Assembly (NCBI GenBank): GCA_019308785.1
Contig: JAFDHL010000027.1
Span: 1-35,256 of the forward strand
Direction: 5' to 3'
From: Deltaproteobacteria bacterium
GTDB lineage: Bacteria > Desulfobacterota > DSM-4660 > Desulfatiglandales > Desulfatiglandaceae
Length of the DNA stretch: 35,256 nt
The notes under the pieces were generated by a model. That model saw nothing but the letters and a program-made list of their open reading frames with translations. It searched no databases and was not told the origin of the DNA. Each line of letters opens with the position of its first letter. Positions within the stretch are counted from its first letter, which is position 1. This document shows, piece after piece, positions 1 to 18,821 of this stretch. The position numbers were made by a program, and so were the translations under genes.

Positions 1-1808
1 TTCTTCAGCTGCTTTTCGTAATATCCCCTGTTTTCGGTTGCCAGGGCAATCGCCTCTCTAATAGCCTTTTCAGCCTCCCGGATGAGCCCGTTAACATAGT
101 AGGCCTCTGCAAGTGTATCAAGAAATATAGGGGATCTATCGAGCTCCACTGCCTTCTTGGCCAGATCAAGAGCCCGATCCGGATTTCTCAGGTCATCATC
201 AGAAACAGTAACTAAAAGCCAGGCCAGATTGTTTAAAGACACCGCGTGGTTTGCATCCAGATTAATGATCCTTTCATAGGTCTCAATGGCCTCTTCATTT
301 CTGCCCAGATGCTGGTAAACAATAGCCAGACCCTGGTAAAGATCGATGTTGTCCGGTTCCTTCAGAAGCCGCTGGTTCAGCGCCTTTCCGACGAACTCAT
401 AGGTCATATTTCTTTTCATGGTGCTGAAATTCAAGAAATACCCCAGTCCGCCCAAACAGACCAAATATATCAAAAAGGAAACGGCCACAAACCGGTTATG
501 CCGTCTGACCAGGCCAGGGTCCCTGAGGGTTCGCCAGAGGGTGTCCACCCTCTCCCTGATGCTGAAGTGGTGCCAGCTGGGAAGATCCCTGCTTTTTCCG
601 CCAAGATCAGCAATCTTTTCCAATGAACTGATTGCGGGTTCGGGGGTGCCCATGGTCTCTGCCGAATAGAGATCAGCCTGACGTTCGAAGTTGCGCATAA
701 AAAAGCCCATTACATAGCGAAAATAGACAAAAAGGCAGATGAGCATCGGAGCGGACAGAATCATATAGAAAAGGTTTACGGCCTGAGAATCCCTACCGGA
801 AATCATATTTATCAAAAGGGGATGTCCATAAAACAGGTAGAAAAAAAGATCAAATAGCCCGGTAGAAAGCACCATAAACCCCACAAAAAAGACAATATAC
901 AAAACGAGGTGTCGGTATCTGGCGTGCCCCATCTCATGGGCCAGCACAGCCTTGAGTTCTTCTTCGGAAAGGACTTCCAAAAGCGAATTGGTAATTAGGA
1001 GGTATCTGTATCTGGGAAGAATACCCATTATTCCAGCAGTCATTATTCTCCCCTCAAAAATCGGCCAGTCCAAGAGATGACGGTACTTGAAGCCCTTCTC
1101 ATTGAGGAACTTCTCCAGTTTCCGGCCCTTTTCTGATGTCCTGATTGGCTTGCATCCCCACCAGTACTGGATAACTGCGGGCATAAAAACCATAAGTAGA
1201 ATTAGAAAACATGAAAAAAAGGCAATCTGTCCCTGCACACTGTCCAGGAACCCGTTGGGTCCACCCCAACGGGTAAAAAGCATCAGGTCATACGCTAAGG
1301 AAAGTACAAACCACGGAAAAAGGATGGGAAGATTAAATCTGAAATTGGAACGGACATAGGATTGTCTTGTAATTTCCACACGAAAAATGGCTTTATACGC
1401 CGGATAAGCGAAATACCAGATTGTGCTGAGATAGAACATAAAAAGCGAAAGGGCAAAAAGGCCCTGCAGTACGGACAATCGCTCAATCCATGGAATTGCC
1501 TGGAGCCAATGCTTCAGGTTAAGGAAATAAACGGCCAGGGCAAACAGAAATATTGCCATGGCTGAAAGCCTGGCGATCAGTCTCTGGTATTCGGCTGTCA
1601 GACTTCCATTATTCTGTTGATAGGGCTTACCCTTATTGAACCGCTTCAGTATATCCAGAAATCCCCAGTAGCAAAATCCAGCGAAGATCAACCAGGTAAG
1701 GAAAAGCATGGTAAGGGAAAAAAAGAGGGAATTCTCCGGGGAGTTGTCAGGATAGTTAAGGCTGAAAATGAGGAGAACGATAATAAAATAAATGATATTG
1801 TTGAACAT
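1..1808 (-). CDS. M48-family membrane metallopeptidase with C-terminal TPR repeats (3' end outside window)
   Basis: One frame is open without a stop from an ATG at 1808 to the window edge, about 602 residues, so the C-terminus is missing. The N-terminal half holds several hydrophobic segments (residues 1-20, 35-50, 80-100, 110-130, 185-205). The zinc-protease motif HEMGH lies at about residue 291 (bases 924-938), and the downstream third-ligand motif ERQAD follows two further hydrophobic segments, as in Ste24/HtpX-type M48 enzymes. After another membrane segment comes a soluble region with TPR-like helical repeats (FVGKALNQRL, GLAIVYQHLG, RNEEAIETYERI, DRALDLAKKAVEL). The likely role is membrane-bound proteolysis in envelope quality control, with the TPR part binding partners. 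The ribosome binding site is weak (GGA about 12 bases upstream), so the start could be nearby. The gene follows rng after about 150 bases of repeat-rich DNA. Confidence 0.85.
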   Translation of the reverse strand, partial: MFNNIIYFIIVLLIFSLNYPDNSPENSLFFSLTMLFLTWLIFAGFCYWGFLDILKRFNKGKPYQQNNGSLTAEYQRLIARLSAMAIFLFALAVYFLNLKHWLQAIPWIERLSVLQGLFALSLFMFYLSTIWYFAYPAYKAIFRVEITRQSYVRSNFRFNLPILFPWFVLSLAYDLMLFTRWGGPNGFLDSVQGQIAFFSCFLILLMVFMPAVIQYWWGCKPIRTSEKGRKLEKFLNEKGFKYRHLLDWPIFEGRIMTAGIMGILPRYRYLLITNSLLEVLSEEELKAVLAHEMGHARYRHLVLYIVFFVGFMVLSTGLFDLFFYLFYGHPLLINMISGRDSQAVNLFYMILSAPMLICLFVYFRYVMGFFMRNFERQADLYSAETMGTPEPAISSLEKIADLGGKSRDLPSWHHFSIRERVDTLWRTLRDPGLVRRHNRFVAVSFLIYLVCLGGLGYFLNFSTMKRNMTYEFVGKALNQRLLKEPDNIDLYQGLAIVYQHLGRNEEAIETYERIINLDANHAVSLNNLAWLLVTVSDDDLRNPDRALDLAKKAVELDRSPIFLDTLAEAYYVNGLIREAEKAIREAIALATENRGYYEKQLK

Positions 1809-1820
1809 AATCGTCAGGGG

Positions 1821-1955
1821 TCCGTTGTCAGTGGTCCTTTGTTATCCTGAAAAAAGCATCTTAGGCGCACAAAAACCGTTCAGAACTCCACGCCCCAGCA
1901 AGAGTAAATGTGCACAGTTTATGCAATGGACAACGAGCAATAGACAACAGACAGG
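1821..1955. repeat. Degenerate intergenic repeat pair, 'GTCCGTTGTC' family
   Basis: Between rng and the M48 gene, bases 1821-1844 read TCCGTTGTCAGTGGTCC and bases 1924-1955 carry a diverged copy in the opposite orientation (TGGACAACGAGCAATAGACA). The same word family recurs at 28581-28640 between the two acyl-CoA dehydrogenase genes, again as an inverted pair. No ORF or RNA gene is recognisable here. Confidence 0.55.
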
Positions 1956-1964
1956 CGAGACATA

Positions 1965-2099
1965 TCAGCTCGCTATATCATCGCTTTCCTTTACAAATTT
2001 CAGTTTCCCTCCCCCAGGGGGAAGCGAAGGATCGCCACGTAAAACAATGTTTACACCATATCGGGACTCAAGCTCTGCGAGTTCCTTTCTCTTCTTGCT
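1965..2099 (-). pseudogene. rng: Out-of-frame C-terminal segment of rng
   Basis: The 44 codons in the +1 frame begin SKKRKELAELESRYGV and contain GDPSLPPGGGKL before a TGA at 1965. This is what RNase G/E proteins carry after the conserved helix that precedes it (in E. coli RNase G, the corresponding end reads SLAEVEIFVGKQVKVQIEP, recalled from memory). Joined to the upstream frame after SYL it would give a protein of about 499 residues. Nothing before SKKRKEL in this frame looks like protein of the family, which places the break at the CTTCAGC stretch near 2100. Confidence 0.75.
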
Positions 2100-3462
2100 G
2101 AAGATAGCTACTGACCTCCAAAGGCAGTACTCCCTGGACCTCGGCAATCTCTTCTCTTGACATACCCATCCAGATCTGGCGCAAAAAAGACACCGCAGCG
2201 GATTCAACAGATAGAACAAGACCCCGTCCCTGGCAGTAATTACATGTCTGGTAGCTCCTGGACTCTATAGAAGGCCTCAATCTCTGTCTCGAGAGTTCGA
2301 GGAGGCCAAATTTGGATATGTGGGAGGTATCTATTTTGGCACGATCTTCTTTTGTCTTCTCACGTAACAACCTCTCGATTTCCCTGATATGTCTTTTATC
2401 TTTCATATCAATGAAATCGATAACTACAAGCCCGCCTATATCTCTCAGACGAAGCTGGCGGGCAATTTCCGCAGCAGCTTCGAGATTGGTCTTGAAGGCC
2501 GTGCTCTCAACATCTTTTTCTGCCCTTCCCCGTCCGGAATTCACATCAATAGAAATCAATGCCTCAGTAGGGTCAATGACAATATAGCCGCCTGATTTTA
2601 AAGACACATCATTACTGTAAATGGTTTCTATCTGCTTCTCGATCTCATAGTGGGCAAAAATGGGACGTTTTTCCTTGTAGAGCCTGACCCTTCTCTGGTG
2701 CCTGGGAGATATGACCTTCATGTAATCTTTCACTTTAAAAAACGTTTCCTTGTCATCTACCAGCACCTCTGTAATTTCGCTGGTAAAATAGTCACGAAGG
2801 GTCTGGAGGCAAACGTCCTGTTCCTTGTGAACGAGGGAGGGTGCGGGGGCTTTATTCACCTTTTTCCGGATGTCCTTCCACATCCTCAAAAGCCGGCCGA
2901 GATCTCTGGAAAGCACCTTCTTGTTCTGTTTCAGGGCCGCAGTTCTGACAATATACCCAATTCCTTCCGGGAGCCTTAACTGATTCATAATGGACTTAAG
3001 CCGGAGCCGCTCTTTTTCGTCCTCTATCTTCTTTGAAATTCCGCCTGTTGTCTTTCCCGGAGTCAGAACAAGGTATCGACCGGCCAGGGAAAGATACGTG
3101 GTCAACTGGGCCCCCTTGCGTCCCGGCATCTCTTTTGTCACCTGCACAAGCAGTTCCTGTCGCTCTTTCATAACTTTCTCAACTGGAGGTAGAGCTTGTT
3201 CCTCCGTCACCTCACAGGTATCCAAGTAGTACTCAGGATGGACTTCACTCACCTGCAGAAATCCGTTCCTATCACCTCCAAAATTGACGAAGCAGGCCTG
3301 CAAGCCGGGTTCGATTCGTTCCACAATCCCCTTGTAGATATTCCTGACCCTTTGCTCTGCCGTGGTGGTTTCGATGTAGAATCCATCCAGAAATCCGTCT
3401 TTGATGATAGCCACCCTGAACTCTTCTGCCTCCACGGCATTAATAAGCATTTTTGTTGCCAT
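2068..3462 (-). CDS. rng: Ribonuclease G/E family endoribonuclease, C-terminus frame-disrupted
   Basis: This is an RNase E/G-type 5'-end-dependent endoribonuclease for rRNA processing and mRNA decay. The S1-like RNA-binding region is near the N-terminus (NIYKGIVERIEPGLQACFVNFG). The two catalytic, metal-binding aspartates lie in ISIDVNSGR and VVIDFIDM. The Zn-link motif is CNYCQGRG near the C-terminus. The ATG at 3462 is preferred over an in-frame one at 3474 because GGGGAG lies five bases before it. The in-frame protein ends with an atypical tail after PLEVSSYL. The family-like C-terminal strand continues in the next frame (see 1965-2099), so a one-base excess or two-base loss sits at about 2098-2103. 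Only about the last 45 residues are lost, and the catalytic core is whole. It may be co-transcribed with the HgdB-like gene 99 bases upstream. Confidence 0.9.
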   Translation of the reverse strand: MATKMLINAVEAEEFRVAIIKDGFLDGFYIETTTAEQRVRNIYKGIVERIEPGLQACFVNFGGDRNGFLQVSEVHPEYYLDTCEVTEEQALPPVEKVMKERQELLVQVTKEMPGRKGAQLTTYLSLAGRYLVLTPGKTTGGISKKIEDEKERLRLKSIMNQLRLPEGIGYIVRTAALKQNKKVLSRDLGRLLRMWKDIRKKVNKAPAPSLVHKEQDVCLQTLRDYFTSEITEVLVDDKETFFKVKDYMKVISPRHQRRVRLYKEKRPIFAHYEIEKQIETIYSNDVSLKSGGYIVIDPTEALISIDVNSGRGRAEKDVESTAFKTNLEAAAEIARQLRLRDIGGLVVIDFIDMKDKRHIREIERLLREKTKEDRAKIDTSHISKFGLLELSRQRLRPSIESRSYQTCNYCQGRGLVLSVESAAVSFLRQIWMGMSREEIAEVQGVLPLEVSSYLQQEEKGTRRA

Positions 3463-3478
3463 AGGTCTCCCCATAGGA

Positions 3479-3573
3479 CACGGATCTCCACAGATACACG
3501 CTGATAATAAATAGACTCTCCGGTTAAGCCTTTGTATTTAAATATCCTGGTAATCCGTGTTCATCTGTGTCCG
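3479..3573. repeat. Inverted pair of 'CACAGATGAACACGGAT'-type repeats
   Basis: Bases 3489-3504 (CACAGATACACGCTGA) and 3552-3571 (AATCCGTGTTCATCTGTGTC) are diverged copies of one word in opposite orientation. ACAGAT/ATCTGT and ACACG/CGTGT can pair across a roughly 50-base spacer. The second copy reads into the HgdB-like gene: on the minus strand its CACAGATGA supplies the last codons (GHR) and the TGA stop. It lies between two same-strand genes and has no downstream T-run, so it is not a typical intrinsic terminator. Confidence 0.6.
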
Positions 3574-4928
3574 GACAGGTTTTTCCTCCCGTTTCGTTTT
3601 AAATGCTGGTGCGCCTGATACATAAATGTCCGAATGGCTGCTTCCCTCCCCGGCTGGAAGCTCGAATCATATGGTGTGTCCAGGTAGGGAATTCTGAGTT
3701 TATTCATAAGAGGCTTTACAATGGCCGAAGTGACCGTACTGGGCATGCAGGTAAACGGATAAACGTTCACCACGCCGTTATATCCTTGTCTTGCATATTC
3801 CACGATTCCGGGAATGCTCAAACAGGCCTCTGTACCCGCATCAAAACAGAACAGGTCCTCTTCTTTAAGTATATTTTCAAGGTGTGCCACCTTATGGTCT
3901 TCTGCCAGATCAATAAGCGACCTCACCCGCTTATAAACTTTCTTCTGTTTCGATTCCTGATAAAGAAGCTCCCCTCCAAAACCGAGTATCTTTTTTAGAT
4001 GATCCCTCATGGGGCCAAAGCGAAGCTGTTTCAGATTCAACCGGAATCCTATTCTGGCGTCCCTCAACTTGTCATATGTCGTGTAATTCACCCATTCGGC
4101 AATAGAGGCATTCACTACCTCGGCGCCATACCTTTCGAGAACCCTGATCACATCCTGGTTTGCATGGACCTGTGTCCTTAAATAAATCTCGCCAACTATC
4201 CCGATAAGGGGTTTAGGAGGGATGGTGAAATCAATAATGGTTTTTCCCTCCTCGACAATCTCTTCCAGTTTATCAAGAATTTTATCAAATTTCTTATTGG
4301 TCCCATAGGTTTTAAAACTGCCTTCCAGGACGTGCATAGATTCTTCGATAAAATCATCCGTCATACCGGTTTCTCGTTCATAGGGTCTGATTCTCCATAG
4401 CAACCTGTCAAGAATATCCGCCACTACCACGGAAAAATAGGCGACTTTCCTGAGGTCCCTGACCCTTTCCTTTTCAATTATTCCATCTAAGGAGTATCCA
4501 TCCTTTGTAGTAAGGGACCCTATTTTCACCCTGCTCAGCTCCGGAAAAGAATCCAGGACAATTCGCTGGTATTTGTTGTACATGCCGAAGCGGCATGGCC
4601 CATCTGATTCCGGCATGAAGTAGATGTAGTCTTCGGGATTAAAAGAATGACCCAGCCTTTCTTTTTCTTTCTTCATGAAATACAGGATATCTCCTGTAGT
4701 GATCTGGCATGGGTAACATTCTTTGCCTGAGGTGTATTCCATACCAAGGTCAAGGCCCTTGTAGGTTTCCATGACTACTGCATCAATTCCAAACCCCATG
4801 AATGTTGCGGCAAGAAGATGAGTCCCTATCCTGTTCATCTGTGGAACCAGGAATGTCTTATTTTTCAGATCAAACCTGCCAACATTTTCACTAAGCGATT
4901 TGAAACTTACTACTTTGTTTGATTCCAT
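3561..4928 (-). CDS. HgdB-like 2-hydroxyacyl-CoA dehydratase-family protein, partner of the activase
   Basis: About 455 residues from an ATG at 4928 (a TTG four codons upstream is also in frame; neither has a clear ribosome binding site). The protein resembles the HgdB/DUF2229-type module found as the C-terminal part of very large fused activase proteins. Visible motifs are GKECYPCQ (about residue 70), ESDGPCRFG (about 110), DAGTEACLS and YPFTCMPS near the C-terminus. These cysteines would ligate iron-sulfur cluster(s). By family knowledge it accepts low-potential electrons from an ASKHA activase and uses them for a difficult reduction or dehydration of a CoA thioester or other substrate; the substrate cannot be read from sequence. 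It lies about 220 bases downstream of the activase gene on the same strand. Its stop codon falls inside a dispersed repeat, so its extreme C-terminus may have been altered. Confidence 0.8.
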   Translation of the reverse strand: MESNKVVSFKSLSENVGRFDLKNKTFLVPQMNRIGTHLLAATFMGFGIDAVVMETYKGLDLGMEYTSGKECYPCQITTGDILYFMKKEKERLGHSFNPEDYIYFMPESDGPCRFGMYNKYQRIVLDSFPELSRVKIGSLTTKDGYSLDGIIEKERVRDLRKVAYFSVVVADILDRLLWRIRPYERETGMTDDFIEESMHVLEGSFKTYGTNKKFDKILDKLEEIVEEGKTIIDFTIPPKPLIGIVGEIYLRTQVHANQDVIRVLERYGAEVVNASIAEWVNYTTYDKLRDARIGFRLNLKQLRFGPMRDHLKKILGFGGELLYQESKQKKVYKRVRSLIDLAEDHKVAHLENILKEEDLFCFDAGTEACLSIPGIVEYARQGYNGVVNVYPFTCMPSTVTSAIVKPLMNKLRIPYLDTPYDSSFQPGREAAIRTFMYQAHQHLKRNGRKNLSGHR

Positions 4929-5115
4929 TTTATGTAACAACAGCGTTTTGAAAAAATCAGTCTTGGATTATACTATAGGGCCCGCCAGCCGTACTGCGGG
5001 CAGGCCATGGGGGTCTCTTTTCAAAAGACGCATCACAAATTCTACTGAGTTTATCCGCCTCTGGCGGGATAGTCGAACGCCCCCAGACCCGCAAATATCC
5101 ATGAAATGATATCGT

Positions 5116-5147
5116 TCTGGTTCCGATGCTCTGCGTCGGAACCCATT
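5116..5147. repeat. Palindromic dispersed repeat, copy 1 (GGTTCCGA/TCGGAACC)
   Basis: GGTTCCGA (5119-5126) and TCGGAACC (5136-5143) form a perfect 8-bp stem around a 9-base loop. A second copy at 28640-28671 is identical at 31 of 32 positions, including the flanks. Copy 1 abuts the activase gene and overlaps its stop codon by two bases. There is no T-run after it on either strand. Confidence 0.8.
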
Positions 5148-8100
5148 AATTCGCAACTTTCAAGTCTGATTTCAGATCTGATCTCACCTTCTGCATTGTG
5201 TTTTCTATGACATTCTTATAGGCCTCAAGCCGAGTCATTACACCGGCTACACCACTATGCTCATCCAGTTCCAGAATCAGATATGCCTTATCTCCCATAA
5301 TATGGCTGTAAAAGTGTTCGATAAAAGAATCCACGCCACAACTAAAATTTGTCAAATGAAGGCCAAAGTAATTTGGATAATCCTTGATATACTTTGCGGT
5401 CCTCAATATCTGGGCACCAAGGCCCCAGTACATGGACGGAAAATCTGAAAGATCTACCGAAGACACGTCAATAAAATCCATGGGCAGAGCAGTTACCCCT
5501 ATCTTGGACAGATTCCGGCCCAGCCTCAAATTCAATCTTTCATCGTATAGATTATAGGGACGACCTGTCACCACGACAACTGGGTCTCCGGAGTTCTGAC
5601 CTTCAAGAATCTCCTGGCCCCTTCTATACATCTCCCTTGCAAACTGATCATTTTTCTCAAGGGCAAAATATATCGCCTTTTTTATCTCAGCCTTTGTCAC
5701 GCGAAGTTTCGATTGTATCTGTTCTGATATCTCCAGTGCAATGGTATCGGGATCGTACTTTAAATGAACAACCGGATTCAAAACCAATACCGGGTCTATG
5801 TGAAGGGCCATGCGCACCATATAAGAATTGGCCTGGAGCATGGGGCAATAAAATCCGGCTTCCGAAGGTTTAGGAGTAGGAATGGTGATTATACTGGGGA
5901 TAAACAGGTATCTTGTTTTTCCCATCAACTCTTTGACGTGGCCGTGCGAGACCTTCACAGGGTAACAGGTTTCGGCCGTCATTGTCTCTATCCCGACCTT
6001 TGAAATACGCGTATTGGTGGGTGGTGTCAGCACAAGCCGAAATCCGAGCTGGTCAAAAAAATGGGCCCATAAGACACTGGTCTGGTAGCCATAAAGCGCT
6101 CTTTGCATGCCCACGGTCGGACGATTGTCCGACACCATAATAGGCTCTCCCTTAAGCTCTTCATATACTCCGGCCATGTATTTCTGCCAAACCTTTTGTC
6201 TCAATTCGAAAAAATTTTCTTTTTTATGACCCTTGGCTTTTGTCAATTCATAGCGACCACATTCCCCACCCCAGACACTACGACGACCGTCAAAATCGTA
6301 AACCTTGAGTTTGCACTGGTTATGACAGTTAGGGTCTGCATGACACACCTTTTCCGAATATTTCATCTGGTCATTTATGGCGCTGTCCAGCCCCCTGAAG
6401 ACACTTTCCTTCCCGCCCTCCAGTTGCACTTTCTCACGGACACTTATGGCGGCGCCAAAGGCCCCCAAAACCTCTCTGTGTTTTGGCACCAGGAGCCCAC
6501 GTCTCAGGACATTCTCAAATGCGGCAACTACTCCTTTATTTAAAGAAGGGCCACCCAAAAACATGACCCTTTGGCCTATTTTTCGCTTCTCCACCACCCG
6601 GTTCAGGTAGTTGTAGACAATGGCATAGCACAACCCGGCTATTAGATCTGTCTGGTCTACCCCTTTTTGGTGGTAAGACACAAGATCTGATTCCATGAAC
6701 ACAGTACATCTCTCAGCCAATTTGACGGGTGTCTTCGATGAAAGAGCAATTTCTTCGAACTCACCCACTATGTTAATCCCGTATTTATTGGCCAGTTCAT
6801 GCAAAAAACTTCCCGTACCCGCAGCGCACACCTTGTTCATGTCAAAATCAAGGGGATAGGTATTGGCGATGTAAATATATTTTGAGTCCTGCCCTCCAAT
6901 CTCAAATATAGTATCCACTGCCGGATCTATCTCAACCGCGCCCCTTGCATGGGCTGTTATCTCGTCAATGATCAAATCAACATTAAGAAAGTCACCTACA
7001 ACATTCCTGCCGGAACCGGTGGTAGCAGTACCAACAATTTCAATCATATTTCCCACATCATCTCTTATTGTCTTCAAAAGCCCCTGGGTGACTTCTATGG
7101 GTTTGCCCTGAGTCATTACATAGCTCTTATGAATGATCTCCCCCTCTTCGTTGATAATGGCATATTTCGTGGTTGTAGATCCAACATCAATACCCAGATA
7201 AACCAAAGTCTTTTTGTGCAGGGATCTTGCTTCGATCTCATTTGTCTCTGGAAAGTGCGTCTCTTTCATTTCCAATTTTGTTGCCACCGGGACCGATAGC
7301 TCGCCGTCCAGACCTTTTTTTTCCAGTATCTCCAGGTTCAAGCGGTATTCCTTCTTTGAGTCAAGCGCCTGTAATGCCACCCCTAAGGCACCTATGGAGG
7401 TATTATAGGGAGGCACTATCAAACCCGGGAAATAGTCTTTAAAGGCATTTACCTGGAGTTCGTTCAATGAAAGCCCACCGATAAAGACAACAGGTTCTTC
7501 CAATACCCGGTTGCAGACAATTGTGCTCATGTAGTTTCTTGCGTTTCCAATATGAAGACCGTGAATAATATCCTCTAACCTTTCCCCCTTGTTTTGCAGG
7601 TGAATCATGTCGGATTTTGTAAATACCGTGCAGCGGCACGCCACATTAGCAGGCTTCTGGCTCCTTAAACCAAGATTGATAAAGTCAGCCAATATCTTGT
7701 CGATATGCTTTTGAGACACGTCCGTCTCTCTGGTATACAGGGCCGTAGCCAGTCTCTGGGCCTGCTGCTCGATAAAAGATCCGGTTCCGGAGGCGCACGG
7801 TCCATTGGTATTGAAGTATTCAAGGTCCCAACCGCCATCATAATGATTAACCTGCAATAAGGCTGTGTCCTGGCCTCCCATACTTATGATCGATTTTACG
7901 TCTGGATTGATGAAAAGAGCACCCAATACCTGGCTAATGGTATCAAATTCATAGAATGTCCCCAATTGCTCGCTGAGTTTCTTCCCGTGATTTCCCGTAA
8001 AGGAAACAGATTTGATCTCCTTTTCCCCGAATTTCTCATACAGGTCCTGAAGAAGGGCCAGAAGCCTCTCTTCTACCTTTCCCATGTGACGATTGTAAGG

Positions 8101-8253
8101 GGATTCATAGACAATCTCCCTTCTGTCATTTACGACAATACAATTCAAGCTCATAGATCCGGCATCAATACCAACATAGTATTGTTCAGAATCCCGTGAC
8201 ACTTTTCGTTCTCTATCGGATGTATATTTCATTGTTCTTATAAATTTAAGCAT
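5146..8253 (-). CDS. Double-ASKHA acyl-CoA dehydratase activase with DUF2229-like C-terminal half
   Basis: This 1035-residue protein has two BadF/BadG/BcrA/BcrD-type ATPase domains in tandem (about residues 26-300 and 352-605). Each starts with a phosphate-binding motif (GIDAGSMSLN; GIDVGSTTTKY), and each carries the two cysteines that hold the bridging [4Fe-4S] cluster of HgdC-type activators: GPCASGTG (C153) with CRCTVF, and VCAAGTG (C476) with ERCTVF (C516). A linker with four cysteines follows (C637, C643, C647, C665). Next is an HgdB-like DUF2229 half with ETCYP (C763), YCPML (C803) and NFSCGVDSF (C972), ending in the family signature LELDEHSGVAG. ATP hydrolysis would drive an electron to very low potential for the partner at 3561-4928. 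The start may be the ATG at 8253 or the one at 8232; neither has a good ribosome binding site. The substrate is unknown. Confidence 0.85.
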   Translation of the reverse strand: MLKFIRTMKYTSDRERKVSRDSEQYYVGIDAGSMSLNCIVVNDRREIVYESPYNRHMGKVEERLLALLQDLYEKFGEKEIKSVSFTGNHGKKLSEQLGTFYEFDTISQVLGALFINPDVKSIISMGGQDTALLQVNHYDGGWDLEYFNTNGPCASGTGSFIEQQAQRLATALYTRETDVSQKHIDKILADFINLGLRSQKPANVACRCTVFTKSDMIHLQNKGERLEDIIHGLHIGNARNYMSTIVCNRVLEEPVVFIGGLSLNELQVNAFKDYFPGLIVPPYNTSIGALGVALQALDSKKEYRLNLEILEKKGLDGELSVPVATKLEMKETHFPETNEIEARSLHKKTLVYLGIDVGSTTTKYAIINEEGEIIHKSYVMTQGKPIEVTQGLLKTIRDDVGNMIEIVGTATTGSGRNVVGDFLNVDLIIDEITAHARGAVEIDPAVDTIFEIGGQDSKYIYIANTYPLDFDMNKVCAAGTGSFLHELANKYGINIVGEFEEIALSSKTPVKLAERCTVFMESDLVSYHQKGVDQTDLIAGLCYAIVYNYLNRVVEKRKIGQRVMFLGGPSLNKGVVAAFENVLRRGLLVPKHREVLGAFGAAISVREKVQLEGGKESVFRGLDSAINDQMKYSEKVCHADPNCHNQCKLKVYDFDGRRSVWGGECGRYELTKAKGHKKENFFELRQKVWQKYMAGVYEELKGEPIMVSDNRPTVGMQRALYGYQTSVLWAHFFDQLGFRLVLTPPTNTRISKVGIETMTAETCYPVKVSHGHVKELMGKTRYLFIPSIITIPTPKPSEAGFYCPMLQANSYMVRMALHIDPVLVLNPVVHLKYDPDTIALEISEQIQSKLRVTKAEIKKAIYFALEKNDQFAREMYRRGQEILEGQNSGDPVVVVTGRPYNLYDERLNLRLGRNLSKIGVTALPMDFIDVSSVDLSDFPSMYWGLGAQILRTAKYIKDYPNYFGLHLTNFSCGVDSFIEHFYSHIMGDKAYLILELDEHSGVAGVMTRLEAYKNVIENTMQKVRSDLKSDLKVAN

Positions 8254-8342: not shown

Positions 8343-9287
8343 CTATGGTTTACCACTGACTTCTGATTGCTGATTGCTCACATAATAAATCTCTCCCGAA
8401 TGTTCTTGCTTACGAATATAGCCCTTAATGAGCAATCCCTTGACCAGATCTTCAACTTCCTCCATGGATAACGCTAATGTATTCGAGATATCAACCGGCT
8501 TAAGCGGTCTCCTTCTTATCATATCCAGAAGACTACCAGCCAGGGAATCTTTGTTTTTCCCCTTCCCCGTAACTGGATCACCGACCACAATTTCCGCCTT
8601 ATCGCCGAAAAATATCCTTATATCTTCTAACCTTCTCCTGTCAAGTGGCATGGCCTTGGAGTCTGCCGGGGGGCGCACAACCGTATTGAGTTGTATCTTG
8701 TCCGGAGAAATCTGACCGATTAATGTCTTTAGTCCTTCCACCTCTTTTCCCGTGTCATTGATCCCGGCCAGCAAGACAACCTCTAATAACAGTTGCCCTT
8801 TGTATTCCTGCCGCAGAGTCTTTAGTCCTTCAACAACCATTCCAAGCTCAAGCCCGGAATGGGGTCTGTGGATCTTCCTGAAGGTGTTTTCAAAGGCGCT
8901 TGTCAATGTCGGCATAATAACATCCGCATTCAGTGCACGCTTTCTGACCTCTTCTCTCCAGAAAAGGGAGCCGTTTGTTAAAAGGACAACCCTTTTTTCA
9001 GTCATTTTTTTGATGGCAGCAATAACCTGATCGATTTCGCAATTGAGCGTGGGTTCGCCTGAACCCGCAAGGGTTATAACATCAGACTCACTTTTGACAA
9101 GTTTCTTTCTGATTTCCTCAATGACTTCGCTGACAGGGACAAAAGGAGCTGTTTTTAGTGTCTTTGATGTGGTTCTTCCCACTTGACAGTATATGCAGTC
9201 AAAGGTACAGGTCTTCGGCGGGATCAGATCAATCCCTAATGACAGGCCCAGTCGTCTTGAGGGAACAGGGCCGAAAACGTAAGGCAT
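8343..9287 (-). CDS. Radical SAM protein, COG0731-type, with C-terminal winged-helix-like region
   Basis: This 314-residue protein opens with the subfamily signature FGPVPSRRLGLSLGID and carries the radical SAM cluster motif CTFDCIYCQ (C27, C31, C34). SGEPTLN matches the GGEP-like S-adenosylmethionine-binding motif. The C-terminal 80 residues (RRPLKPVDISNTLALSMEEVEDLVKGLLIKGYI) look like a winged helix. Members resemble the wyosine-synthesis radical SAM group in sequence but mostly have no assigned reaction; a bacterial role in tRNA wyosine formation is not expected. The ATG at 9287 has GGAG eight bases upstream. It lies about 90 bases upstream of the activase gene on the same strand. That position would allow co-expression but does not prove a shared function. 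Confidence 0.8.
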   Translation of the reverse strand: MPYVFGPVPSRRLGLSLGIDLIPPKTCTFDCIYCQVGRTTSKTLKTAPFVPVSEVIEEIRKKLVKSESDVITLAGSGEPTLNCEIDQVIAAIKKMTEKRVVLLTNGSLFWREEVRKRALNADVIMPTLTSAFENTFRKIHRPHSGLELGMVVEGLKTLRQEYKGQLLLEVVLLAGINDTGKEVEGLKTLIGQISPDKIQLNTVVRPPADSKAMPLDRRRLEDIRIFFGDKAEIVVGDPVTGKGKNKDSLAGSLLDMIRRRPLKPVDISNTLALSMEEVEDLVKGLLIKGYIRKQEHSGEIYYVSNQQSEVSGKP

Positions 9288-12392: not shown

Positions 12393-13358
12393 TCACCGCC
12401 TTTTCAATATTTTTGAAATAGCAGATGTGGACACACCCAGTTGTCGCCCTGTTTCCGCTAATGTCATCCCATATTCCGTAATCAATTGATACGCCAAATC
12501 CGACCTGATTTTTGGTATCTTTCCCCGACGGCTGCCCAACTGCATCTCTTTGAGGTTAATACCTTCTTTTTCAGATACCCCTCTGATTAGCTTTAAAGCC
12601 ATCTTCCTTTGCGTATTTCCTGAATACTGATATTTCATTCTCTCATCAGCTTCTTCAATCAATTTTTCTACAAACTCACCACTGCCCAATATCCTTTCAT
12701 CACTCAAAACCTTCTCATTGCTTCGCCTTAAAGACATTACAGCAGACCATCCACCAAGTGATCGTATTAATCCGCCACCTACCAGTTCCGGCCGCCTTCC
12801 ATCTGATAAACCGTTTTTTACATATTCACGGTAGGCTTTTCTTTCTTCTCGTTTTTTACGACCAAACCAGGATAACACATAATCCACATTCTGCCATTCA
12901 TGCATTCTTCTGCCCATCAATACGCTGTGGCCGCACCAAGGATATCTGTCAAGGCTCGATAGATCTTTAACGATTTTTGCTCTTAAGGGATTGAGATGGA
13001 TGTACCGAACAAGTTCTTGAAAATAGGCATCCTCTTCACACACAATGGATTTGTAGCGGTTTTGAAAAAGATGTCCATGTCGTTTATGGCGGAGGTTATA
13101 GCTTATCGCATACCCACTTAGCAATCTTCTCATATACTTTGAAAGACCAGGAGGACCACTGCGTAAAAGAATATGGGCGTGATTGGACATCAAGGACCAG
13201 GCATAGATTTCGGTTTTTGTATCAGAGGCAAGATCTCCAAGGCGGGTTACAAAATTCTTTCGGTCATATTGATCATCGACTATTTTTCTCTTTTCTATCC
13301 CCCTGATGATAACATGGTGCAGGGTTCCTGGGGCATCCAGCCGGGCTTGGCGGGGCAT
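12393..13358 (-). CDS. REP-associated tyrosine (Y1/IS200-like) transposase with C-terminal helix-turn-helix
   Basis: This 321-residue protein has the RAYT-type N-terminus MPRQARLDAPGTLHHVIIRG, in which the HHVIIRG strand is a family hallmark. The HUH motif is SNHAHILL (HAH, about residue 60). The helix with the candidate catalytic tyrosine is KYMRRLLSGYAISYN, followed by GHLFQNRYKS and YIHLNPLRA, all standard for Y1_Tnp proteins. About residues 240-321 add an accessory domain ending in a helix-turn-helix (TLAETGRQLGVSTSAISKIL), probably a DNA-binding module recognising the element ends. The enzyme would cut and rejoin single-stranded DNA at hairpin-forming sequences. The start is well supported: AGGAG five bases before the ATG at 13358. 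The ORF appears intact, so the element may still be active. Confidence 0.92.
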   Translation of the reverse strand: MPRQARLDAPGTLHHVIIRGIEKRKIVDDQYDRKNFVTRLGDLASDTKTEIYAWSLMSNHAHILLRSGPPGLSKYMRRLLSGYAISYNLRHKRHGHLFQNRYKSIVCEEDAYFQELVRYIHLNPLRAKIVKDLSSLDRYPWCGHSVLMGRRMHEWQNVDYVLSWFGRKKREERKAYREYVKNGLSDGRRPELVGGGLIRSLGGWSAVMSLRRSNEKVLSDERILGSGEFVEKLIEEADERMKYQYSGNTQRKMALKLIRGVSEKEGINLKEMQLGSRRGKIPKIRSDLAYQLITEYGMTLAETGRQLGVSTSAISKILKRR

Positions 13359-17258: not shown

Positions 17259-18821
17259 TCACTTGGCATATTCCACGGCCCTTGTTTCACGAATTACTAT
17301 CACCTTTATCTGTCCGGGATAGGTCAGTTCCTTTTCTATTTTCTTTGCAATATCCTTGCAAATAATATAAGCCTGATCGTCACCGACAATTTTTCCTTCA
17401 ACCATAATACGAATCTCGCGCCCGGCCTGAATGGCGTAGGACTTATTGACCCCATTAAAAGACATGGCGATCTTCTCCAGCCCTTCCAGCCTTTTCACGT
17501 AAGACTCCAGCATCTCCTGACGTGCTCCCGGCCTTGCACCTGACAAGGTATCTGCTGCCTGAACCACAACGGCCAAAACAGTCTCAGGCTGCACATCCTC
17601 ATGATGAGCCGCAATAGCATGAACGACCTGGCTTGATTCTCCGTATTTTCTTGCAAGATCTGCCCCAATAATCGCATGGGGGCCCTCCACTTCATGGTCT
17701 ACAGCCTTGCCAATATCATGAAGCAATCCGGCCCTCTTTGCCTGTTTCATATTCAAGCCAAGTTCGGCCGCTATCACGCCGCTGATAAAGCTGACTTCCC
17801 TTGAGTGCTGGAGTACGTTTTGGGCATAACTCGAACGGTACTTCAGTCGACCGATGAGCTTGACAAGCTCATGATTAATCCCATGGACCCCGACATCAAA
17901 TGTGGCCTGTTCCCCTGCCTCCTTGATACTCCCTTCGATCTCCTTACCGACCTTTGCTACAATCTCCTCTATCCTGGCAGGATGAATCCTTCCATCATCT
18001 ATTAATCTCTCCAGGGAGATCTTGGCCACTTCTCTCCTTACAGGGTTGAACCCGGATAATATAACGGCCTCCGGGGTGTCATCAATAATCAGATCTATCC
18101 CGGTAGCAGCTTCAATTGCCCGAATGTTCCTTCCTTCCCTTCCAATGATCCTTCCCTTCATCTCATCGTTTGGCAGGTTGACCACAGAAACTGTCTTTTC
18201 CGCCACGTAATCCCCTGAGTATCTCTTTACTGCCAGGGCGAGAATTTCCTGAGCCTTCCGGTCAGCCTCAGCTCTTGCCTCATTTTCAATCCTTCGCATA
18301 ATTTTTGCGGCATCATGCCTTGCCTCTGATTCCATTGATCTGATGAGTAACTGTTTTGCCTCCTCACTGGATATACCGGCCAGGTTCTCCAGTTGCCTTC
18401 TCTGATCCTGAATGAGACGTTCATATTCCTCCTCTTTTCGTCTCAGATCCTTATCAATCCGATCAATAGCCCTTTCTCTTTCACCAATTCTACCTTCCCT
18501 TTTCTCAAGCTGTTCAATTTTCCTGTCTAAATTCTCCTCTTTATGAAACAGACGCTTTTCCTGGACCAACAACTGCTCTTTTTTCTCTTTTGTCTCCTTC
18601 TCAAACTCAACCTTCATCTGGTAGAGCGTATCCTTGGCCTGAAGCGCCGCCTCTTTTTTCACTGTTTTGGCTTCTTTTTGGGCCTCCTCAAGTATTCTCT
18701 TCGAATATTTCTCTATGGAATCAACCCTGCTCTCGACGACCTTCTTGCGTATTAAAAAACCGACTGGAATACCCGCAATTAGGCCTACCATAATAATTCC
18801 AATTATATGAATAGCAGTCAT
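17259..18821 (-). CDS. rny: Ribonuclease Y
   Basis: This 520-residue protein has the full RNase Y architecture. An N-terminal transmembrane helix ([20 protein letters not shown]) is followed by a long coiled coil (about 30-200), a KH domain with [15 protein letters not shown], and an HD domain with [16 protein letters not shown]. The C-terminal [18 protein letters not shown] is standard. It is a membrane-attached endoribonuclease that starts mRNA decay. The ATG at 18821 has AGGAG about 13 bases upstream, a long spacing, but the N-terminal sequence supports the start. It follows zapB-zapA on the same strand after about 420 AT-rich bases. Its 3' end meets the AOR relic head-on. Confidence 0.96.

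Follow-up and report, generated by a model that had tools for sequence, protein, structure and literature searches.

The 2-hydroxyacyl-CoA dehydratases have an activase whose cluster is held by two cysteines of each monomer, and a three-cysteine cluster in each of two homologous subunits (PMC11574389). The double-cubane [8Fe-9S] site uses six cysteines per subunit (PMC11971306). The gene pair described here lies in a stretch of 35,256 nucleotides from a Deltaproteobacteria bacterium (the window, at its full length) and shares features with several of these systems. With (R)-2-hydroxyisocaproyl-CoA dehydratase (HadBC) and HadI it has in common two homologous three-cysteine subunits, two cysteines per activase monomer and a similar fold, but HadI is a separate homodimeric activase, no four-cysteine linker has been described there, the CoA substrate is known and the subunits belong to the HGD-D family. 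Compared with the class I benzoyl-CoA reductases BzdNOPQ and MbdONPQ, its activase is closest to MbdQ and its two-subunit core is similar, although BzdN has a six-cysteine double cubane (PMC11971306), which the pair lacks, and the substrate of these reductases is known. DCCP and its reductase resemble the system in fold and differ from it in their six-cysteine cluster and separate activase. Finally, fused DUF2229 proteins of about 1400 residues, annotated as “acyl-CoA dehydratase activase” or “2-hydroxyacyl-CoA dehydratase” in Listeria, Collinsella, Haliovirga and many Desulfobacterota, are like the pair in domain order and in 14 cysteines, but consist of one polypeptide instead of two and lie outside the monophyletic clade to which the pair belongs. 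We conclude that the two genes are a genuine core system, a split variant of this widespread, uncharacterised family of probable ATP-driven Fe-S reductases.

The gene pair and its domains

The larger gene encodes two ASKHA activase domains followed by DUF2229, an order that is a trait of the fused family (Table 1). Pfam identifies BcrAD_BadFG twice together with DUF2229 (1.2e-60, 1.2e-50), and NCBIfam also gives activase and DUF2229 matches. The HgdB-like reading frame at its full extent covers 3561-4940 on the reverse strand (459 residues), and its start is more likely the ATG at 4928, as in relatives. Its sole Pfam match is to DUF2229, below threshold (E=8e-4); the HGD-D profile gave no match to it at E<=0.001. 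The original prediction of a double-ASKHA activase and DUF2229 chain beside a separate HgdB-like gene, together making up a domain set usually found in one protein of about 1400 residues, is thus borne out: both open reading frames are present, the Pfam domains agree, and most genomes of the phylum with a match have the set in one chain. The single-chain arrangement itself is replaced by two genes here and in the other split-clade genomes; it is usual in the DUF2229-type family but variable, with splits annotated in Fusobacterium and Monoglobus, and was not used to define membership.

Table 1. Features of the gene pair and its conserved neighbours. Positions are nucleotides of the window unless given as residues.
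Feature	Position	Strand	Basis or remarks
RNase E/G family protein	2068..3474	-	conserved downstream neighbour
HgdB-like protein, ~455 aa, probable second half of two-subunit core	3561..4928	-	invariant C71, C112, C394
Dispersed palindromic repeat between the two genes	4941..5145	.	205 bp; 44 matches in genome including itself
Activase-DUF2229 protein, 1035 aa	5146..8253	-	ORF and Pfam/NCBIfam matches
ASKHA-1 of 1035-aa protein	residues ~24-300		
ASKHA-2 of 1035-aa protein	residues ~351-608		
Four-Cys linker of 1035-aa protein			C637, C643, C647, C665
DUF2229 half of 1035-aa protein, putatively of electron-relay type	residues ~700-1020		C763, C803, C972
Radical SAM protein, C-terminal winged-helix-like region	8343..9287	-	conserved upstream neighbour

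The gap between the two genes consists of the dispersed repeat and is for this reason not taken to mark separate units; of 30 split-clade relatives, 21 have the genes at most 30 bp apart. A gene for a tyrosine transposase of the REP-associated type, below the NCBIfam cut-off, lies in the same window at 12393-13358 and might mobilise the repeat.

Conserved cysteines and the predicted fold

Fourteen cysteines are near-invariant across 66 split, fused and other-phylum homologues: two in each activase domain (C153/C208 and C476/C516), four in the linker, three in the DUF2229 half and three in the HgdB half. Each of these sets is kept in nearly all of the 66 rows, the exceptions being mainly partial or very divergent ones, and a further cysteine of the HgdB-like protein, C74, occurs in all seven split-clade rows and in some fused rows. 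In the linker, a C-x5-C-x3-C cluster had been proposed at residues 637-647; its three cysteines are indeed conserved, but the count is four, with C665 present in almost every homologue. All except the linker four fit the 2-hydroxyacyl-CoA dehydratase plan. As in the BcrAD/BadFG activases (archerases), an ASKHA ATPase carries two putative cluster cysteines per monomer, and the fold agrees; as in the dehydratases, two homologous subunits have three cysteines each, which would bind the clusters.

The model of the 1035-residue protein is of moderate quality (pLDDT 70, pTM 0.45), with the cysteine loops as its poorest regions. Its ASKHA part matches MbdQ, HadI, HgdC and the DCCP reductase by fold, and the second activase domain matches the solved MbdQ, HgdC and HadI by sequence. 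As a stand-in for the complex of both chains, the last 813 residues of a fused relative were modelled (pLDDT 85.5, pTM 0.84), and all 11 Foldseek matches to this half at E<0.001 were HAD, DCCP or benzoyl-CoA reductase subunits. Alignment of the relative's DUF2229 half by VIA-align on HAD, DCCP and BzdNO subunits gave Z of 10.2-14.1; the best unrelated chain reached about 8. Z was higher on the presumed relay chains (3o3m_D 14.1 vs 3o3o_A 10.2; 8s02_B 13.1 vs 8s2r_C 11.2), the relay subunits (HadC, BzdN) having been assigned to chains by chain length only. This fold alignment was run on the DUF2229 half, and the HgdB half is tied in by an hhalign profile comparison of the two halves, which covers 274 columns at E=4e-4 with a low probability (34%) and has the three cysteines in register. 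Sequence searches of the PDB with the HgdB-like protein, its profile or the fused C-terminal half yielded no convincing relative.

Judged by profile comparison and predicted fold, the DUF2229 part, too, is a subunit of the HgdB type and the halves are homologous, so that the two chains would form an ordinary two-subunit core, one subunit of which bears the fused activase. We therefore regard a single dehydratase-like core of two subunits with a built-in activase as most likely, and the split into two genes as a modest variation, seen also in Fusobacterium.

Distribution of the split and fused forms

The HgdB-like protein was found in 41 of 41 genomes searched in the window's family and order, with full-length matches 57-83% identical, and the two genes are adjacent in nearly every checkable locus (the exceptions are L053, L068 and those truncated at a contig end). 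Across the order, both proteins keep about 55-85% identity, which shows that the pair is not there by chance. The named relatives are mostly metagenome-assembled genomes of Desulfobacterota. In a sample of 158 genomes of the phylum, 123 had a match, most of them as single frames of about 1400 residues; the separate form occurred in the window's order and in a few other families.

In a tree of 53 proteins, for which split pairs were concatenated, the seven separated forms make up one clade (SH-aLRT 100) on a long branch, which falls in a larger group with fused proteins of Desulfobacterota, its exact sister being left unresolved by this tree. The order-wide occurrence, the single clade and the 205 bp between the genes rule out a sequencing error or a recent break as the origin of the two-gene form. 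An activase and 2-hydroxyacyl-CoA dehydratase pair of Fusobacterium animalis has the same split boundary (about 975 + 404 residues) but stands elsewhere in the tree, which implies an independent split; in Monoglobus there are three separate genes. One genome (G042, with 4% contamination) carries both the split and the fused form, so their relation may be one of paralogy and not of simple replacement. Distant fused paralogues of about 1400-1540 residues (L149-L152, L146-L148), which belong to two or more clades of this tree, are present as well in part of the genomes of the window's family.

A search of the window's own genome found HGD-D on contigs C236 and C58 only, each locus comprising an activase and two HGD-D subunits. 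No characterised dehydratase or benzoyl-CoA reductase was found to be an orthologue of the pair, and the two separate canonical loci imply that it is not a hidden orthologue; canonical work of either kind can be done from those loci. The one on C236 (G000, 1336-5638; L001, L004, L006) has the appearance of a four-subunit class I benzoyl-CoA-reductase-like locus, and one activase copy in it runs across two reading frames (1336-1617 and 1626-2045), which may reflect a frameshift.

Neighbouring genes, proposed mechanism and role

As the original prediction held, no CoA-transferase or electron-donor genes adjoin the pair: its neighbours are genes for radical SAM, PolA, RNase E/G and M48/TPR proteins, and the order at the named loci is rnaseY, polA, (radical SAM), activase, hgdB, RNase E/G, M48. 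The upstream radical SAM and the downstream RNase E/G genes recur as partners, which the first reading of the locus had not reported. Taken from phylum-wide match positions, a strong radical SAM match adjoins the system in 26 of the 75 genomes where both occur (11 families) and one RNase E/G type does so in 19 of 52 (9 families), where chance proximity, on a rough estimate for a genome of about 3 Mb, is about 0.3% per genome. In eight other families (9 of 60 genomes) the radical SAM gene adjoins RNase E/G with no system between them. All 54 adjacency cases are on the same strand, the gaps between system and RNase are mostly below 70 bp, and radical SAM usually comes upstream. The system occurs without a strong radical SAM match in 25 genomes, and the presence and absence of the two are moderately correlated (odds ratio 3, p=0.002, without correction for relatedness). 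The winged-helix-like region of the radical SAM protein exceeds the Pfam cut-off in one relative, and the window's protein is without a solved relative by sequence. A small look outside the phylum, at Listeria, Fusobacterium, Collinsella and Haliovirga, found neither RNase E/G nor radical SAM annotated as a partner.

This same-strand adjacency suggests a housekeeping, perhaps RNA-linked, role, and it supports a role shared among the neighbours, though a shared ancestral gene order is an alternative explanation. RNase E/G and an RNase Y (17259-18821) both lie in the window, within a span of about 17 kb, and many genomes of the phylum hold two RNase E/G paralogues of different similarity.

The pair is probably an oxygen-sensitive enzyme in which ATP pushes electrons via four iron-sulfur clusters to a target. 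The two ASKHA domains of the one chain would form an internal pseudo-dimer with one [4Fe-4S] cluster between C153/C208 and C476/C516. Binding or hydrolysis of ATP would bend the activase hinge and drive a low-potential electron into the three-cysteine cluster of the DUF2229 half, the putative relay, from which it would pass to the open-coordination three-cysteine cluster in the HgdB-like partner chain; radical chemistry may there reduce or dehydrate a substrate. The four-cysteine linker probably bears a further [4Fe-4S] cluster, perhaps the point of electron entry. We infer this mechanism with fair confidence. The literature searched, mostly without subscription papers and including COG3580/3581, COG0731 and activase essentiality, contained no member of the DUF2229 family with an assigned reaction or function, and the enzyme class is for this reason inferred. 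We consider it likely that the two proteins act as an ATP-driven one-electron reductase with the proposed cluster relay, a member of the benzoyl-CoA reductase / 2-hydroxyacyl-CoA dehydratase fold superfamily. Homology, cysteine inventory and fold sustain the ATP-driven low-potential electron system that had been predicted, although the prediction missed the partner genes and the core is of the ordinary two-subunit type.

Three other readings have to be weighed. The first takes the pair for a genuine (R)-2-hydroxyacyl-CoA dehydratase or a class I benzoyl-CoA reductase with a CoA thioester as its catabolic substrate, and the cluster plan and the fold agree with it. But the HgdB-like protein has no HGD-D match, canonical activase and HGD-D loci occur separately in the same genome and the window has neither a CoA-transferase gene nor catabolic genes close to the pair, which makes this improbable; any single catabolic pathway is further disfavoured by the presence across the order and by the occurrence of the family in Listeria, Collinsella and Fusobacterium. 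The second reading is a double-cubane [8Fe-9S] reductase of small molecules, in keeping with DCCP as one of the best fold matches. Such a site, however, requires six cysteines per subunit (PMC11971306) and each half has only three that are invariant; the double-cubane reading is ruled out on this count, leaving a DCCP-like enzyme very improbable.

Alternatively, the pair may activate or repair another metalloenzyme or cofactor, re-reducing it by protein contact as corrinoid activators do, with no small-molecule substrate. The HgdB-like protein is present in all relatives of the order without substrate genes, and ATP-driven reductive activation of corrinoid proteins is known (PMC6739815), but a two-subunit three-cysteine core looks like dehydratase subunits and not like an activator alone, and we think this unlikely.

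As for the role of the proposed reductase, it is probably housekeeping rather than catabolic and shared with the radical SAM enzyme and RNase E/G. That it consists in the modification or repair of RNA or a cofactor is a guess, with the odds against it. A more specific and distinctly doubtful speculation is that the radical SAM/winged-helix protein, the reductase and RNase E/G make up one anaerobic pathway of RNA modification or processing, in which the reductase would reduce a nucleoside, instead of a CoA ester, by dehydratase- or Birch-like radical chemistry.

The enzyme family is widespread, strongly conserved and anaerobic, and apparently makes electrons of very low potential at the cost of ATP. 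The two-gene form means that the presumed relay and catalytic halves can be purified and mutated separately, and the radical SAM and RNase E/G neighbours provide a first handle on the role of this family of reductases.
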